This document shows, one piece after another, positions 37,240 to 45,419 of a stretch of 64,000 nucleotides of DNA. The translations under genes were made by a program, and so were the position numbers. Origin of the DNA: Flavobacterium sp. CF136 (GTDB lineage: Bacteria; Bacteroidota; Bacteroidia; Flavobacteriales; Flavobacteriaceae); contig NZ_AKJZ01000032.1 in NCBI RefSeq assembly GCF_000282055.1, positions 1 through 64,000 of the forward strand, given 5' to 3'. The stretch's first letter is position 1. Each line of letters starts with the position of its first letter. The notes beneath the pieces were generated by a model. It searched no databases and was not told where the DNA came from. It was given only the letters and a program-made list of their open reading frames with translations.

Positions 37240-38769
37240 CTATTCCCACTCAATTGTTGCAGGTGGTTTTGAACTTATATCGTAAACCACACGATTTACG
37301 CCTTTTACTTTATTAATAATATCATTTGACACTTTCATTAAGAAGTCATAAGGTAAATGAACCCAATCAGCAGTCATACCGTCGGTAGATTCTACAGCTC
37401 TAAGTGCTACTACTTTTTCGTATGTACGCTCATCGCCCATTACACCAACAGAGTTTACAGGAAGCAAAATTGCTCCGGCCTGCCAAACTTTATCATACAA
37501 TCCCCAGGATTTTAATCCTTCAATAAATACCGAATCAACATCTTGTAAAATCTGAACTTTCTCAGGAGTAATATCCCCTAAAATTCTGATGGATAATCCT
37601 GGTCCCGGAAAAGGGTGTCTTCCTAATAATTCAGGGTCTATTCCTAAAGTAGCTCCAACTCTTCTTACTTCGTCTTTGAAAAGCATTCTAAGCGGTTCTA
37701 CAATTTTTAATTTCATATAATCCGGCAATCCACCCACATTATGATGAGATTTAATTGTTGCCGATGGCCCTTTTACAGAAACCGACTCGATTACGTCAGG
37801 GTAAATTGTTCCCTGAGCAAGCCATTTTACATCTTCGATCAAGTGTGATTCATCATCAAAAACTTCAATAAATACACGTCCAATCGTTTTACGTTTGGTT
37901 TCAGGATCACTGATTCCGGCTAATTCACCCAGAAAACGATCTCCGGCGTCTACTCCTTTTACGTTCAATCCCATTCCTTTGTATTGATCTAACACATTTT
38001 GGAATTCATTTTTACGAAGCAAACCGTTATTTACGAAAATGCAGTATAAGTTTTTACCAATTGCCTGGTGCAATAAAACTGCTGCTACAGTAGAATCTAC
38101 TCCGCCGGAAAGTCCTAAAACTACTTTATCATTACCTAATTTCTCTTTTAATTCTCCCACCATTTCTTCTACGAAAGCATTTGGTGTAAAGTTTTGAGGA
38201 ACTTCTGCAATATTTACTAAAAAGTTTTCCAGCATTTTTGATCCATCAGTAGAATGGAAAACTTCCGGGTGATATTGAATAGCATAAGTGGTTTCGCCTT
38301 CAATTTTGTAAGCTGCATATTCTACGTCATGTGTGCTGGCTAATTTCACCGCATTTGTTGGCAAAGCTTTAATACTATCACTGTGGCTCATCCAAACCTG
38401 GCTGTTTTCTGAAACTCCTTTAAAGAAAACTTCATTCTCTTTAATATAAGATAAATTAGCCCTGCCATATTCTCTGGTGTTCGAAGCGGCTACTTCACCT
38501 CCACTAAAATGAGCTAAATATTGTGCTCCGTAACAAACTGCCAACATTGGAAGCTTGCCCCGAATTTGAGATAAATCAGGATGTGGAGCGTCTTCTGCAC
38601 GAACAGAAAATGGGCTTCCTCCTAAAATTACGGCTTTATAAGGTGATAAATCACTAGGAAAGTGATTGTAAGGGAAAATTTCGCAGAATATATTTAATTC
38701 GCGAACTCTACGCGCAATAAGCTGTGTATATTGCGATCCGAAATCTAAAATAAGTACGTTGTGTTGCAT
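37240..38769 (-). CDS. guaA: GMP synthase (glutamine-hydrolysing)
   Basis: This 509-residue enzyme converts XMP to GMP using ATP and glutamine. The N-terminal class I amidotransferase has nucleophile Cys79 ([10 protein letters not shown]) with His167 and Glu169 (IQYHPEVFH). The ATP-pyrophosphatase has the P-loop LSGGVDST at 220-227, followed by the GMP synthase dimerisation domain. The start is ATG 38769; two codons earlier is a TTG that is less likely. A TATTTTTG sequence at 38780-38773 abuts the ATG: if it is a -7 box, the mRNA would be leaderless, but no matching -33 box is seen. Confidence 0.97.
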
Positions 38770-38845
38770 GCGCAAAAATACTTTTTATATTCGAATTTGA
38801 AAAATTGATTTTTGATTTTTTTTTCTTTAAAGATTCTATGATTCT

Positions 38846-40492: not shown

Positions 40493-41407
40493 ATGGATTA
40501 TATCGACTACTATAAAACATTGGAAATTACAAAATCTGCGACTGAAGCCGAAATAAAAAAAGCATATCGAAAATTAGCCCGGAAATATCATCCGGATTTA
40601 AATCCGAATGATAAAGAAGCGGAGAAAAAATTCAAAGAAATAAACGAAGCTAATGAAGTTTTGGGTAATCCGGAAAATCGTAAAAAATACGATAAATACG
40701 GAAAAGACTGGAAGCATGCTGATGAATTTGAAAAAGCGGGCTATAATCCGAATCAACAGCAACGGTCGGGACAACAAAGCGGTCGGGGTTTTTCAGATTT
40801 TTCCAGTGGTGATTTCTCAGAAAGTGATTTTTCTGATTTTTTCAATTCGATGTACGGTTCGGCAAGAAGCAGCAGAAGCCAATCAAAATACAGAGGACAG
40901 GATTTTAATGCTGAACTTGAACTGGATTTGGTATCTGCTTATACTACACACAAGCAGAACCTAACCGTAAATGGTAAAAATATCCGAATTACGATTCCTG
41001 CGGGTGTAGAAAACGGGCAGATTATAAAAATTCCCGGACATGGCGGTCCTGGTGTAAACGGTGGTCCGAATGGCGATTTATACATTACTTTCTTAATTGC
41101 AAATAATCCGGATTTTAAAAGAGAGGGCAATAATTTGTACGCTGAAATTAATCTTGATTTGTATACCGCAATTTTAGGCGGAGAAATTTATATAAACACT
41201 TTTGACGGAAAAGTAAAAATTAAGGTACCACCGGAAACACAGACCGGAACTAAAGTAAAATTAAAAGGAAAAGGTTTTCCTGTATACAAAAAAGAGAATC
41301 AATTTGGAGATTTATACGTTACTTATACTTTAAAAATTCCAACAAAATTATCAGTAAAAGAAAAAGAATTATTCGAAGAATTAGCTAAAATCAGAAATCA
41401 TGAGTAA
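40493..41407 (+). CDS. cbpA: CbpA-type J-domain co-chaperone
   Basis: This 304-residue DnaJ-like protein has a J domain at residues 1-68 with His33-Pro34-Asp35 (KYHPDLNP). A Gly/Ser/Phe-rich linker spans about 85-130. Two C-terminal substrate-binding beta-barrel domains span about 140-300 (FNAELELDL, IPAGVENGQIIKIPGHGG, GDLYITFLI, GDLYVTYTLKIP). The cysteine-rich zinc region of true DnaJ is absent, so it is the CbpA class. It stimulates DnaK ATPase and delivers clients. It overlaps by 8 bases the next gene, its modulator CbpM. Confidence 0.93.
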   Translation: MDYIDYYKTLEITKSATEAEIKKAYRKLARKYHPDLNPNDKEAEKKFKEINEANEVLGNPENRKKYDKYGKDWKHADEFEKAGYNPNQQQRSGQQSGRGFSDFSSGDFSESDFSDFFNSMYGSARSSRSQSKYRGQDFNAELELDLVSAYTTHKQNLTVNGKNIRITIPAGVENGQIIKIPGHGGPGVNGGPNGDLYITFLIANNPDFKREGNNLYAEINLDLYTAILGGEIYINTFDGKVKIKVPPETQTGTKVKLKGKGFPVYKKENQFGDLYVTYTLKIPTKLSVKEKELFEELAKIRNHE

Positions 41408-41711
41408 TAAAAATTTAATTCAGATAAGAGAATTTTGTTTGTATCACGAAATTGAAAATACCTTTATAACTGAACTGCATAATTATGGTTTGATTAAAAT
41501 TATTATTCAGGAAGAAGATGAGTATTTAGAACCTGAGCAATTGCCTGCTGTAGAAAAAATGATTCGCCTGCATTATGATCTTAAAATCAATCTGGAAGGA
41601 ATTGACGCTATTGCTCATTTATTAAACAGAATTGAACTTTTACAGCAGAATCTTATCGCTTCTCAAAACAAATTGCGTCTTTATGAAGAAAAAACAGAGG
41701 AACTGAATTGA
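41400..41711 (+). CDS. cbpM: Chaperone modulator CbpM
   Basis: This 103-residue MerR-HTH-like protein (IQIREFCLYHEIENTFITELHNYGLI) with a C-terminal coiled region (LLNRIELLQQNLIASQNKLRLYEEKTEE) matches CbpM, which binds the J domain of CbpA and blocks its action. The 8-base overlap with cbpA shows translational coupling and fixes the start. Length matches the family. Confidence 0.9.
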   Translation: MSNKNLIQIREFCLYHEIENTFITELHNYGLIKIIIQEEDEYLEPEQLPAVEKMIRLHYDLKINLEGIDAIAHLLNRIELLQQNLIASQNKLRLYEEKTEELN

Positions 41712-41867: not shown

Positions 41868-42254
41868 ATGAAAAGAGAAAACATCTTAACAGGATCACCA
41901 TGGGAAGACAAAATGGGATATTGCCGTGCTGTACGAATTGGCAATATTATTGAGGTTTCTGGTACTGTGGCTATTGTTGATGGCGAAAAGGTAAAGGCCG
42001 ATGATGCTTATGCACAAACTTATAACATTTTAGAACGTATAGAAAAAGTACTGGAGGATTTAAACGTTGGAATGAAAGACGTAATCAGAACACGCATTTT
42101 TACTACTGACATCACTACTTTTGAAGAGGTTGCCAGAGCACATGCAGCCTTTTTTAAAGATGTAAAACCAACAACCGGTTTTTATGAAATCAGCAAATTA
42201 GTTGCTCCTGAATATTTAGTTGAAATTGAATTCACTGCCGTAGTACAGGAATAG
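41868..42254 (+). CDS. RidA/YjgF-family protein without the canonical arginine
   Basis: This 128-residue protein has the trimeric RidA fold (SGTVAIVDGE, AYAQTYNILERIEKVL, VIRTRIFTTDITTFEEVARAH, YLVEIEFTAVV). In RidA proper the imine substrate is gripped by an Arg in a PxRxxVEV motif. Here the corresponding segment is PTTGFYEISKLV, with Thr103 instead. It therefore belongs to a Rid subgroup not expected to deaminate 2-aminoacrylate, and its real substrate is unknown. It is a lone gene, followed by a long inverted repeat. Confidence 0.88.
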   Translation: MKRENILTGSPWEDKMGYCRAVRIGNIIEVSGTVAIVDGEKVKADDAYAQTYNILERIEKVLEDLNVGMKDVIRTRIFTTDITTFEEVARAHAAFFKDVKPTTGFYEISKLVAPEYLVEIEFTAVVQE

Positions 42255-42258
42255 TTTC

Positions 42259-42392
42259 TTTGCCACGAATTTCACAAATTATCTCTAATTATTTATTTTC
42301 AACAGATTAAAAATTAAGAGAATTCCCTCGAATTAAAAATTTTATAGTCAAGCCTTTTAAAATTCGTTTTTATTAGTGAAATTCGTGGCAAA
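42259..42392. repeat. 134-bp inverted-repeat element with GCCACGAATTTCAC ends
   Basis: TTTGCCACGAATTTCAC (42259-42275) and GTGAAATTCGTGGCAAA (42376-42392) are perfect 17-base inverted repeats around about 100 AT-rich bases. There is no coding capacity inside. The core GCCACGAA also forms the terminator stem at 19215-19272. The form is MITE-like. It fills the intergenic space just before the CLC gene. Confidence 0.7.
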
Positions 42393-42401
42393 CTTATTTA
42401 A

Positions 42402-43634
42402 ATGAATTTTCAAAAACCTAAGGAAATACTGCTGACAATATTCAAATGGATTCTCATTTGTATTTTGACAGGGACTTTATCCGGATCTGCATCAGCATTT
42501 TTTTTAGTTTCTTTAGAATGGGTTACACAATTCAGGATTAACCATGACTGGATTATCTGGCTTTTGCCAATTGGTGGATTTCTTGTTGGTTTGAGTTATT
42601 ATTATTGGGGAGAATCTGTTGTAAAAGGCAATAACTTATTACTTGAAGAATACGAAAATCCGAAGAAAGTAATTCCGTTTAAAATGGCTCCTTTAGTTCT
42701 TTCAGGAACCTTACTCACACATTTATTTGGAGGTTCTGCCGGACGTGAAGGTACAGCCGTACAAATGGGGGGCGTAATTGCCGATCAATTCACAAAAATT
42801 TTCAATCTAGATAATTCCGAACGAAAAATTTTAATTATCCTCGGAATCAGTGCCGGTTTTGCATCCGTTTTTGGTACCCCTTTAGCTGGAGCTATTTTTG
42901 CTTTGGAAGTTTTGTATTTTAGTAAAATCAATTTCAAAAGTATTGTTTTATCTTTTCTAACCGCTTATGCAGCTTATTTTACAGTAGAATTCTGGCAGGT
43001 TAAACATACGCATTACAACATTCCTGACGTTCCTGAAATCAATCTGACAAACTTATTTTATACCATAATAATCAGTATTTTATTTGGTCTTGCTGCTTTA
43101 TTATTTTCCAGAAGCACACATTTTTGGAGTTCTCTTTTTTCAAACATTAAATATCCGCCATTACGTCCTTTTATTGGAGGGATTATTTTAGCCATTGCCA
43201 TTGCAGGTTTTGGACTTACAAAATTTTCGGGATTAGGTGTTCCGGTAATTGTAGATTCGTTTTCAAATACCAATCCCTGGTATGACTTTCTGCTTAAAAT
43301 TTTATTTACCGGATTTACTTTAGGAGCTGGTTTTAAAGGTGGTGAAGTAACACCTCTATTTTTTGTCGGAGCAACTTTAGGAAGCGCTTTATCAGTGATA
43401 GTTCCAATGCCAATTGCACTTTTGGCCGGAATGGGTTTTGTTGCCGTATTTTCCGGCGCAACACACACTCCTGTCGCCTGCACTATTATGGGAATGGAAT
43501 TATTTGGAATAACACCAGGGCTTTTTATCGCAATTGCTTGTAGTATTGCTTATTTTTCTTCAGGTTCTGTAGGTATTTATAAGTCTCAGATTGTAAAGGG
43601 TGCGAAATATAAATTGTATCAGAAATGGCTTTAA
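42402..43634 (+). CDS. CLC-type antiporter with fluoride-specific (CLC-F) motifs
   Basis: This 410-residue inner-membrane CLC protein has about ten helices. The gating glutamate is Glu116 in GSAGREGTAVQ. Two motifs of chloride CLCs are replaced: the GSGIP loop is VKGNNLLLEE (residues 74-83), and the GxFxP loop is KGGEVTPLFF (312-321). These forms, with GREGT, are those I know from the bacterial CLC-F branch, which exports fluoride in exchange for protons. I therefore prefer a fluoride/proton antiporter over a chloride channel. No fluoride riboswitch is visible upstream; the 147-base gap is a repeat element. Confidence 0.85.
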   Translation: MNFQKPKEILLTIFKWILICILTGTLSGSASAFFLVSLEWVTQFRINHDWIIWLLPIGGFLVGLSYYYWGESVVKGNNLLLEEYENPKKVIPFKMAPLVLSGTLLTHLFGGSAGREGTAVQMGGVIADQFTKIFNLDNSERKILIILGISAGFASVFGTPLAGAIFALEVLYFSKINFKSIVLSFLTAYAAYFTVEFWQVKHTHYNIPDVPEINLTNLFYTIIISILFGLAALLFSRSTHFWSSLFSNIKYPPLRPFIGGIILAIAIAGFGLTKFSGLGVPVIVDSFSNTNPWYDFLLKILFTGFTLGAGFKGGEVTPLFFVGATLGSALSVIVPMPIALLAGMGFVAVFSGATHTPVACTIMGMELFGITPGLFIAIACSIAYFSSGSVGIYKSQIVKGAKYKLYQKWL

Positions 43635-43765: not shown

Positions 43766-44770
43766 ATGAAAATACAAGATATTCAGGCGATACAATTATT
43801 ACTCGCAGCCCCAAAGAAAATCGCTATAATTCCACATAGAGGTCCTGATGGTGATGCTATGGGTTCTACGTTGGGTTTATACCACTTTTTATTAAAAAAT
43901 AATCATCAGCCAACAGTAATTGCCCCTAATGATTTTCCTGATTTTTTAGCATGGATGCCAGGTTCTGAATCTGTAAAAATATTTGAAAAAGATACTGAGA
44001 ACTGCACTAAAATATTAGAGGAAGCTGAAATAATATTCACACTTGATTTTAATGCTTTACATCGTACAGGAGAAATGGAGCATACTTTAGCCAAACTAAA
44101 AGCGCCATTTATTATGATTGATCATCATCAAAAACCTGATGATTATGCAGCCTATACGTACTCAGACACTTCGTTTGGATCGACTTGCGAAATGGTGTAT
44201 AACTTTATATCGTTTTTAGATAAAAAAGGAGATTTAGACAAAACAATTGCAACCTGCCTTTATACCGGAATATTGACAGATTCAGGATCCTTTCGTTTTC
44301 CAAAAACAACAGGAAATACGCATCGTATCGTTGCGAAATTGATTGATTTAGGTGCGGAAAACACAGAAATTCCGGTTTTATTATTTGATAATAGTTCCTA
44401 CAGTCGTTTGCAATTATTAGGTCGTGCGTTGCAGAATATGAAAGTTTTTGAAGAGCATAAAACATCGTATACTTCGCTTACACAAGACGAGTTGGATTCA
44501 TTTAATTACGTAAAAGGTGATACTGAAGGAATTGTAAATTATGGATTAAGCATAAAAGGTATTGTTTTTACTGCTATTTTTATTGAAAATAAAGACGAGA
44601 AAATCATCAAAATATCATTCCGTTCACAAGGCGGGTTTGATGTCAATCAATTTGCCAGAGATCATTTTAACGGTGGAGGCCATAGCAATGCTGCAGGTGG
44701 AAAATCGGAAACTTCAATGGAAGAAACTCTGAAAAAATTTGAAGATTTAGTAACTAAACTAAAAATATAA
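43766..44770 (+). CDS. nrnA: DHH-family nanoRNase/pAp phosphatase
   Basis: This 334-residue phosphoesterase degrades 2-5 nt RNA and dephosphorylates 3'-phosphoadenosine 5'-phosphate. Metal-binding motifs of the DHH domain are present: PHRGPDGDAMGST (about residues 23-35), LDFNALHR (about 93) and the DHH triad in MIDHHQKPDD (about 115). A C-terminal DHHA1 domain has GGGHSNAAGG. The length is normal. It lies 8 bases before gldI, on the same strand, so nrnA-gldI-foldases may be one operon. Confidence 0.93.
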   Translation: MKIQDIQAIQLLLAAPKKIAIIPHRGPDGDAMGSTLGLYHFLLKNNHQPTVIAPNDFPDFLAWMPGSESVKIFEKDTENCTKILEEAEIIFTLDFNALHRTGEMEHTLAKLKAPFIMIDHHQKPDDYAAYTYSDTSFGSTCEMVYNFISFLDKKGDLDKTIATCLYTGILTDSGSFRFPKTTGNTHRIVAKLIDLGAENTEIPVLLFDNSSYSRLQLLGRALQNMKVFEEHKTSYTSLTQDELDSFNYVKGDTEGIVNYGLSIKGIVFTAIFIENKDEKIIKISFRSQGGFDVNQFARDHFNGGGHSNAAGGKSETSMEETLKKFEDLVTKLKI

Positions 44771-44777
44771 CCAAACA

Positions 44778-45419
44778 ATGAATTACTTAAAAATAAGCAT
44801 TTACACGTTACTCTTTGCTGTTTTATTGGTAAGCTGTAAACATCATGAAGAAGCCAGAAGACCTATTTCAAGGGCGTCAGGCACTTTTATGAAAAAATCA
44901 GCTGACAGAAATAAAAAATTAGTAGCCAGCGAAGAAGATGTTATTAAAAAAATAATCAAAAGCAATCCGAAAATAAAATATTTCGCAACAAGAAAAGGAT
45001 ACTGGCTTTATTATGAAGAAAAAAACACAACCGATCTTTCAACACCTAAAAAAGGAGACATTGCTTATTACAGTTTAGAAGTTAAAGACATAGATGGTAA
45101 GATTATTTATTCAGAAGCAGAACTTGGTCCACAAACCTATCATGTTGACAAACAAGATATCATGATGGGATTGCGTGATGGTATCAAATTAATGCATAAA
45201 AATGAAATTGTAACCTTCTTATTCCCTTCGCATATCGCTTATGGATATCACGGAGACAATAAAAAAATTGGCACTAATGAATCCTTAATCTGTACTGTTA
45301 CACTTCGAAATTTTGTACCCGAAGAAGCTCCTAAAACACCGGAAACAGCCACACAAACCCTAAAACCAACAGTGCCAAAAGCAGCAGTTGAAACTAAAAA
45401 AGACACTTTAACCCCGTAA
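44778..45419 (+). CDS. gldI: GldI, gliding-motility FKBP-type peptidyl-prolyl isomerase lipoprotein
   Basis: This 213-residue lipoprotein has lipobox VLLVSC at Cys20. An FKBP domain spans about residues 80-180 (GDIAYYSLEVKDIDGKIIYSE, VDKQDIMMGLRDGIKLMHKNEIVTFLFPSHIAYGYHG), with a Pro/Thr-rich tail. Sequence and context match GldI of Flavobacterium, an outer-membrane-associated foldase needed for gliding and for the type IX secretion machinery. It is followed by two more foldases in the same direction (16 and 45 bases), so this is a periplasmic folding cluster. Confidence 0.93.
   Translation: MNYLKISIYTLLFAVLLVSCKHHEEARRPISRASGTFMKKSADRNKKLVASEEDVIKKIIKSNPKIKYFATRKGYWLYYEEKNTTDLSTPKKGDIAYYSLEVKDIDGKIIYSEAELGPQTYHVDKQDIMMGLRDGIKLMHKNEIVTFLFPSHIAYGYHGDNKKIGTNESLICTVTLRNFVPEEAPKTPETATQTLKPTVPKAAVETKKDTLTP

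Follow-up and report, generated by a model that had tools for sequence, protein, structure and literature searches.

A predicted CLC-F-type fluoride/proton antiporter of Flavobacterium encoded in a genomic slot that holds crcB in sister species

The DNA analysed here (the window) comprises the first 64,000 nucleotides of contig NZ_AKJZ01000032.1 of Flavobacterium sp. CF136. It contains an open reading frame with an ATG start codon, referred to below as clcF, whose product had been ascribed in the initial annotation to the fluoride-type branch of the CLC superfamily. The features of the locus, in coordinates of the window, are the following.

37240..38775, minus strand: guaA (GMP synthase), the left flank common to some clcF and crcB loci of the genus (Pfam)
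41868..42254, plus strand: RidA-family protein (PF01042), upstream of clcF (Pfam)
42255..42401, no strand: RidA-clcF intergenic region, containing an inverted repeat that recurs across the genome and no riboswitch above cut-off
42402..43634, plus strand: clcF, predicted CLC-F type fluoride/proton antiporter gene, 410 aa (open reading frame; match to CLC-Eca, 6d0j, 2.4e-58; motif alignment; tree)
42624..42641, plus strand: selectivity loop KGNNLL, residues 75-80, GSGIP in E. coli ClcA (alignment; signature in the available parts of PMC11139923 and PMC5100911)
42741..42755, plus strand: GREGT, residues 114-118, with the external gating Glu116 (alignment)
43338..43361, plus strand: GGEVTPLF, residues 313-320 (alignment; Glu315 and Thr317 align with CLC-Eca E318 and T320)
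43766..44770, plus strand: DHH/DHHA1 protein, right flank of the slot (Pfam; slot counts)
44778..45419, plus strand: FKBP-type peptidyl-prolyl isomerase, right flank of the slot (Pfam)

The DHH/DHHA1 protein is presumably NrnA-like and the isomerase, by our assumption, gldI-like; the place upstream of these two genes is called the DHH-gldI slot.

The clcF product matched the CLC superfamily model PF00654 with 245.4 bits (cut-off 24.8). Its best PDB matches were the CLC-F antiporter entries 6d0j, 6d0k and 6d0n (2.4e-58 to 2.3e-57), followed by a variant of E. coli ClcA (2e-10). In the alignment, the CLC-F-type loop GNNLL (residues 76-80) takes the place of GSGIP, GREGT with the external gating glutamate stands at 114-118, and GEVTP at 314-318 is joined by the C-terminal Tyr393; the same columns of ClcA read GSGIP, GREGP and GGIFAP, and the GSGIP and GxFxP loops typical of ClcA and ClcB were not found in the clcF product. 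The initial annotation had thus placed KGNNLL (75-80), Glu116 in GREGT and GGEVTPLF (313-320) correctly. The available part of a review gives the CLC-F signature as GNNLI/GMGLI, GREGT/V and GEVTP (PMC11139923). All four strings of the clcF product are identical to those listed for the F- proteins of Pirellula staleyi and Ralstonia pickettii (GNNLL, GREGT, GEVTP, Y) in a table of PMC5100911; in the accessible portion of that paper a role in fluoride resistance is shown for eight of the table's proteins, the text not saying which.

Superfamily, GREG gate, GEVTP and tyrosine are thus shared with the CLC-F antiporters, namely CLC-Eca of Enterococcus casseliflavus and the Asn-type proteins of P. 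staleyi, R. pickettii and Pseudomonas syringae, and for the Pirellula protein the review lists a transport rate (PMC11139923). Residues Glu116, Glu315, Thr317 and Asn77 correspond to CLC-Eca Glu118 (Glu-ex), Glu318 (Glu-in), Thr320 and Met79, so that CLC-Eca differs in having methionine where the clcF product has asparagine; the roles of E118, E318 and M79 are treated in the available section of PMC12035849. By analogy with CLC-Eca, we infer that the clcF product would export fluoride and exchange F- for H+, with Glu116 acting as a moving gate that would couple proton entry to fluoride exit. Among the 64 aligned rows, 59 were counted by us as CLC-F, CLC-Eca included; G76, GREG 114-117, GGEVTP 313-318 and Tyr393 are conserved in all 59 and Asn77 in 57, a conservation that in part reflects selection for likeness, relatives having been picked for the alignment. 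At the position of ClcA Glu203, valine stands both in the clcF product and in CLC-Eca.

In a tree of the 64 rows, the clcF product fell on the CLC-F side, and ClcA, ClcB and the two other CLCs of the genome split off at 99*. As the initial annotation had led us to expect, the protein groups with CLC-Eca, the only experimentally proven CLC-F included, and with riboswitch-linked CLC-Fs, apart from the chloride CLCs of the set. The exact place of CLC-Eca is unsure because of its long branch (program warning). The slot-encoded proteins included, i.e. the window protein and only 13 of the many others, formed one clade (14 rows, 100*). The genome's two other CLCs (L001 and L002, contigs C49 and C6) carry the chloride-type loops GGNFAP and GGVFAP; their gates read GLES and GIEV, not GREG. 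Just outside the CLC-F rows (99*) lay a CLC of 428 aa (L039), whose motifs GHGTE, GKEGPS and GGVVTPVF are intermediate between the chloride and the fluoride sets; its genome, G131, also carries crcB. Motifs, PDB matches and tree together support the CLC-F-type identity of the product of 42402-43634, an identity that is in itself known biology.

A scan of the genome for crcB (Fluc), a check already envisaged in the initial annotation, gave no match. No fluoride riboswitch scored over the cut-off of 34 bits, either in the window or across the genome, where the top score was 16.6 bits (150 of 364 candidates scored). Therefore, no fluoride exporter other than clcF is recognised in this genome, and the locus shows no feature that would couple the expression of clcF to fluoride. 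The window and genome scans agree with the earlier observation that a repeat, rather than a riboswitch, precedes the gene, and the repeat is real: its perfect 17-base arms lie at 42259-42275 and 42376-42392. The element GCCACGAATTTCAC (window 42259-42392) is one of 76 genomic matches with at most two mismatches to the pattern GCCACGAATTNCACNAATT (30 + 46; backwards-read control, 0 + 1), which often occur as facing pairs, and similar repeats occupy the same gap in many relatives. Given this genome-wide distribution there is no sign of special control, and clcF-specific control by the repeat was rejected. Expression of clcF may be constitutive or start from the RidA promoter. The gap between RidA and clcF measures 56 to 521 bases among 62 slot loci with RidA, and a crude pattern found both repeat arms in 20 of these 62.

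We compared riboswitch control in relatives using samples of the phylum (296 genomes) and of the genus (150 genomes); the scans of both used stricter filters, which lose weak matches, and absence therefore means none over the cut-off. The genus was assigned as Flavobacterium on the basis that 75 of the 80 named relatives retained carry this name. RF01734 exceeded the cut-off in 34 of the 296 phylum genomes. By comparison of coordinates, 17 clcF copies (43-61% identity) in 15 of these genomes start 50-118 bases downstream of a riboswitch, and the 15 belong to the 24 genomes outside the genus whose clcF reaches 42% identity or more. Within the genus a riboswitch was found in 21 of 150 genomes, every one of them 59-180 bases upstream of a clcF match; these riboswitch-linked genes have at most 65% identity to the window clcF, and none lies in the DHH-gldI slot. 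Thus clcF outside the slot is accompanied by a riboswitch in 21 of 25 genomes, whereas the slot clcFs have none over the cut-off. The four relatives outside the slot without a riboswitch over the cut-off (G572, G625, G660 and G672) have 37-42% identity, and in two of the four the first loop is changed. Two such divergent CLC-F relatives, L277 (G625) and L278 (G660), with 37-41% identity, retain GREGT and GEVTP, show altered first loops (GGNAVV and AGTKMV) and in the search listing are each interrupted by one in-frame stop. The idea that RidA-less slot clcFs have a degenerate riboswitch was rejected, as cmscan (E up to 5) gave no RF01734 match at seven of the nine such loci and at L003. According to the review, in the part available, about 30% of CLC-Fs are under riboswitch control (PMC11139923); such control is a frequent trait of CLC-Fs but does not define them. 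The presence of two kinds of clcF within one genus, with and without riboswitch, makes the loss of riboswitch control testable.

Across the 150 genomes of the genus, clcF (E up to 1e-40) was present in 93 and crcB in 57, and both occurred together in a single genome, against a chance expectation of 35. The sole double carrier, G650, is 79% complete; one genome, G668, has neither gene. In the phylum sample, 38 genomes carry a clcF that reaches 42% identity or more, and by our reading of the listings two of them (G298 and G344) also have crcB. CLC-F and Fluc are described in the accessible part of PMC11139923 as usually mutually exclusive, about 3% having both; there, Fluc is a fundamentally different protein, a passive channel as opposed to an antiporter. 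The job of CrcB/Fluc is presumed to be the same as that of clcF.

The two genes share more than a presumed function. In 71 of the 150 genus genomes clcF lies, as in the window, upstream of and on the same strand as the DHH gene, mostly followed by the gldI-like FKBP gene, and in 43 of the 150 this DHH-gldI slot is taken by crcB; in these 114 genomes the two genes never occur in the slot together. The distance to DHH is 32-789 bases (median 75) for crcB and 80-2541 bases (median 135) for clcF, the upper value stemming from G616, which was counted as slot and included in the flank tree with its DHH just over the 2500 limit. Outside the slot, crcB was found in 13 genomes, and at a contig end in one; clcF was found only outside the slot in 21 genomes, 17 of them with a riboswitch, and four further genomes have a riboswitch clcF in addition to an occupied slot. 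As crcB fills this slot in sister species, one position is served by either of two non-homologous exporters, each replacing the other.

Left flanks are shared as well. guaA adjoins clcF in L247 and L265 and crcB in L286, L294 and others; two small genes before guaA adjoin clcF in L246 and crcB in L293, L312 and L323; a third pair of matching flanks links L251 and L262 (clcF) with L297 (crcB), and a fourth L254 (clcF) with L305 (crcB). In the last pair, DNA identity on the left is 85% and, beyond about 0.5 kb found in L254 only, 89% as far as 85 bases ahead of clcF; on the right, the match resumes 75 bases past clcF with 89% identity, and the genes in between are unrelated. Both loci have the stretch TTTTATTACATTTGAAA, a candidate shared upstream element seen by eye in these two loci. 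A Flavo-1 RNA (RF01705, 82 bits) was noted about 2 kb upstream of RidA-less slot clcFs, at 1648-1727 of L262 and 7103-7182 of L251.

We consider the most probable reading, with a probability of about 0.93, to be that clcF encodes an Asn (GNN)-type CLC-F F-/H+ antiporter, the sole recognised fluoride exporter of this genome, in a slot where crcB substitutes in sister species. Of more interest than the identity of clcF is the slot that the two exporters share. Searches of the open-licence literature of PubMed Central listed no paper on this slot in Flavobacterium. A similar arrangement is known from Streptococcus, where, according to the available part of PMC11077948, Fluc or CLC-F occupies one genetic context across species; there the flanks are chorismate mutase and rplS, here the guaA side and DHH-gldI. 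Given this streptococcal precedent, the Flavobacterium slot adds a second phylum, not a new principle; it has been counted in 150 genomes and comprises at least three forced changes of occupant. DHH as a functional partner is not favoured, because the streptococcal flanks differ and because DHH (1e-6) was found near crcB in none of 12 loci from other genera of the family (L341-L352), within the stretch fetched.

The history of the slot was traced on a tree of 114 DHH proteins, from which L318 was omitted for its DHH piece of 42 aa. At least seven changes of occupant were required, three of them forced by starred branches, compared with 34.8 in shuffles; the occupant is thus strongly clustered, and most genomes therefore inherited it. 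A subset of 53 of the 114 rows (18 clcF, 35 crcB) gave six changes, and in the AU test on these rows, which leave out eight long-branch crcB rows and 53 of the 71 clcF rows, a single clade of clcF loci was rejected (p-AU 9.5e-5). Distances correlate with those of DHH with r = 0.88 for clcF and r = 0.92 for crcB. Outliers between clcF and DHH distances were rejected as proof of transfer, as none was decisive. Because the distances of both genes follow DHH, the occupants appear to be old residents that were, several times, either swapped or sorted from an old pair.

The second of these possibilities, that crcB and clcF were formerly neighbours in the slot and one of the two was lost in each lineage, would need no exchange between genomes, and the two correlations are what would be expected of two old residents. 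We nevertheless regard it as a tentative alternative, appreciably less probable than exchange. None of the 114 occupied slots holds both genes, the intergenic stretches of L254 and L305 show by eye no remnant of the other gene, and both genes would have had to persist at several deep nodes. Exchange of slot occupants between genomes is favoured over differential loss because no slot has both genes, and we infer that the swaps came about by recombination through the conserved flanks. Somewhat better than an even chance can be given to the broader proposal that the Flavobacterium exporter is an exchangeable cassette, the slot being refilled repeatedly by recombination with either of the two unrelated exporters, whereas the free-standing clcFs retain the fluoride riboswitch and those in the slot do without it. 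If true, this proposal and the streptococci would make a recurrent rule in two phyla, by which analogous genes are swapped like alleles. The slot amounts to an experiment of nature, with an antiporter in some lineages and a channel in others presumably serving one purpose at one site, and what governs a lineage's choice of exporter (proton cost, speed, membrane-potential dependence) could be asked in isogenic laboratory strains.

A RidA gene lies upstream of clcF, on the same strand, in 62 of the 71 slot clcF loci of the genus, with a gap below 80 bases in 17 of the 62; two of the nine RidA-less loci are cut by contig ends. The two genes could form a joint detoxification unit of fluoride export and removal of 2-aminoacrylate, which would arise from fluorinated amino acids. 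In line with this idea, RidA was absent (E 1e-30) from all 29 genus genomes examined that lack a slot clcF (20 with crcB only, seven with riboswitch clcF only, G650 and G668), the single control, G642, being positive. We consider such a unit improbable, however. At seven slot clcF loci the fetched sequence contains no RidA gene, RidA lies beside none of the fetched riboswitch-linked clcF loci of the genus, it is not named in the available text of a paper on fluoride operons (PMC5533749), and one inherited insertion in one clade accounts for the pattern. Upstream of RidA, window positions 40493-41711 hold a DnaJ-like gene (by sequence) and a gene for a MerR_2 (PF13591) protein; this pair is present in many relatives of at least 84% identity, absent below 80%, and also absent from L013, L090, L091, L099, L107 and L110.

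It is very improbable that the selectivity loops have drifted in what is otherwise a normal chloride channel or Cl-/H+ antiporter. All four matching NCBIfam models are chloride/ion-channel CLCs, and relatives are named as chloride channels in 34 of the 40 plasmid records listed, but the models score far under their cut-offs (best 97.7 vs 482), the motif set is retained in riboswitch-carrying relatives, the genome has two other CLCs with chloride-type loops, and the exclusion with crcB would be left unexplained. Judged from its sequence, the clcF product is most likely a fluoride exporter that standard annotation mislabels as a chloride channel, and it corrects a common label. The mislabelling anticipated in the initial annotation was indeed encountered as "voltage-gated chloride channel family protein" in those 34 of 40 plasmid records among the matches listed. 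The search for plasmid relatives (E up to 1e-15) returned 121 records, including Klebsiella, Citrobacter and Enterobacter, and both relatives checked (L409 and L410) carry the full fluoride motif set. In L410, the Comamonas plasmid NZ_CP101745.1, CLC-F and crcB adjoin each other together with two DUF190 genes, against the usual exclusion; the pair lies next to an arsenic cluster, and the plasmid is mobilizable.
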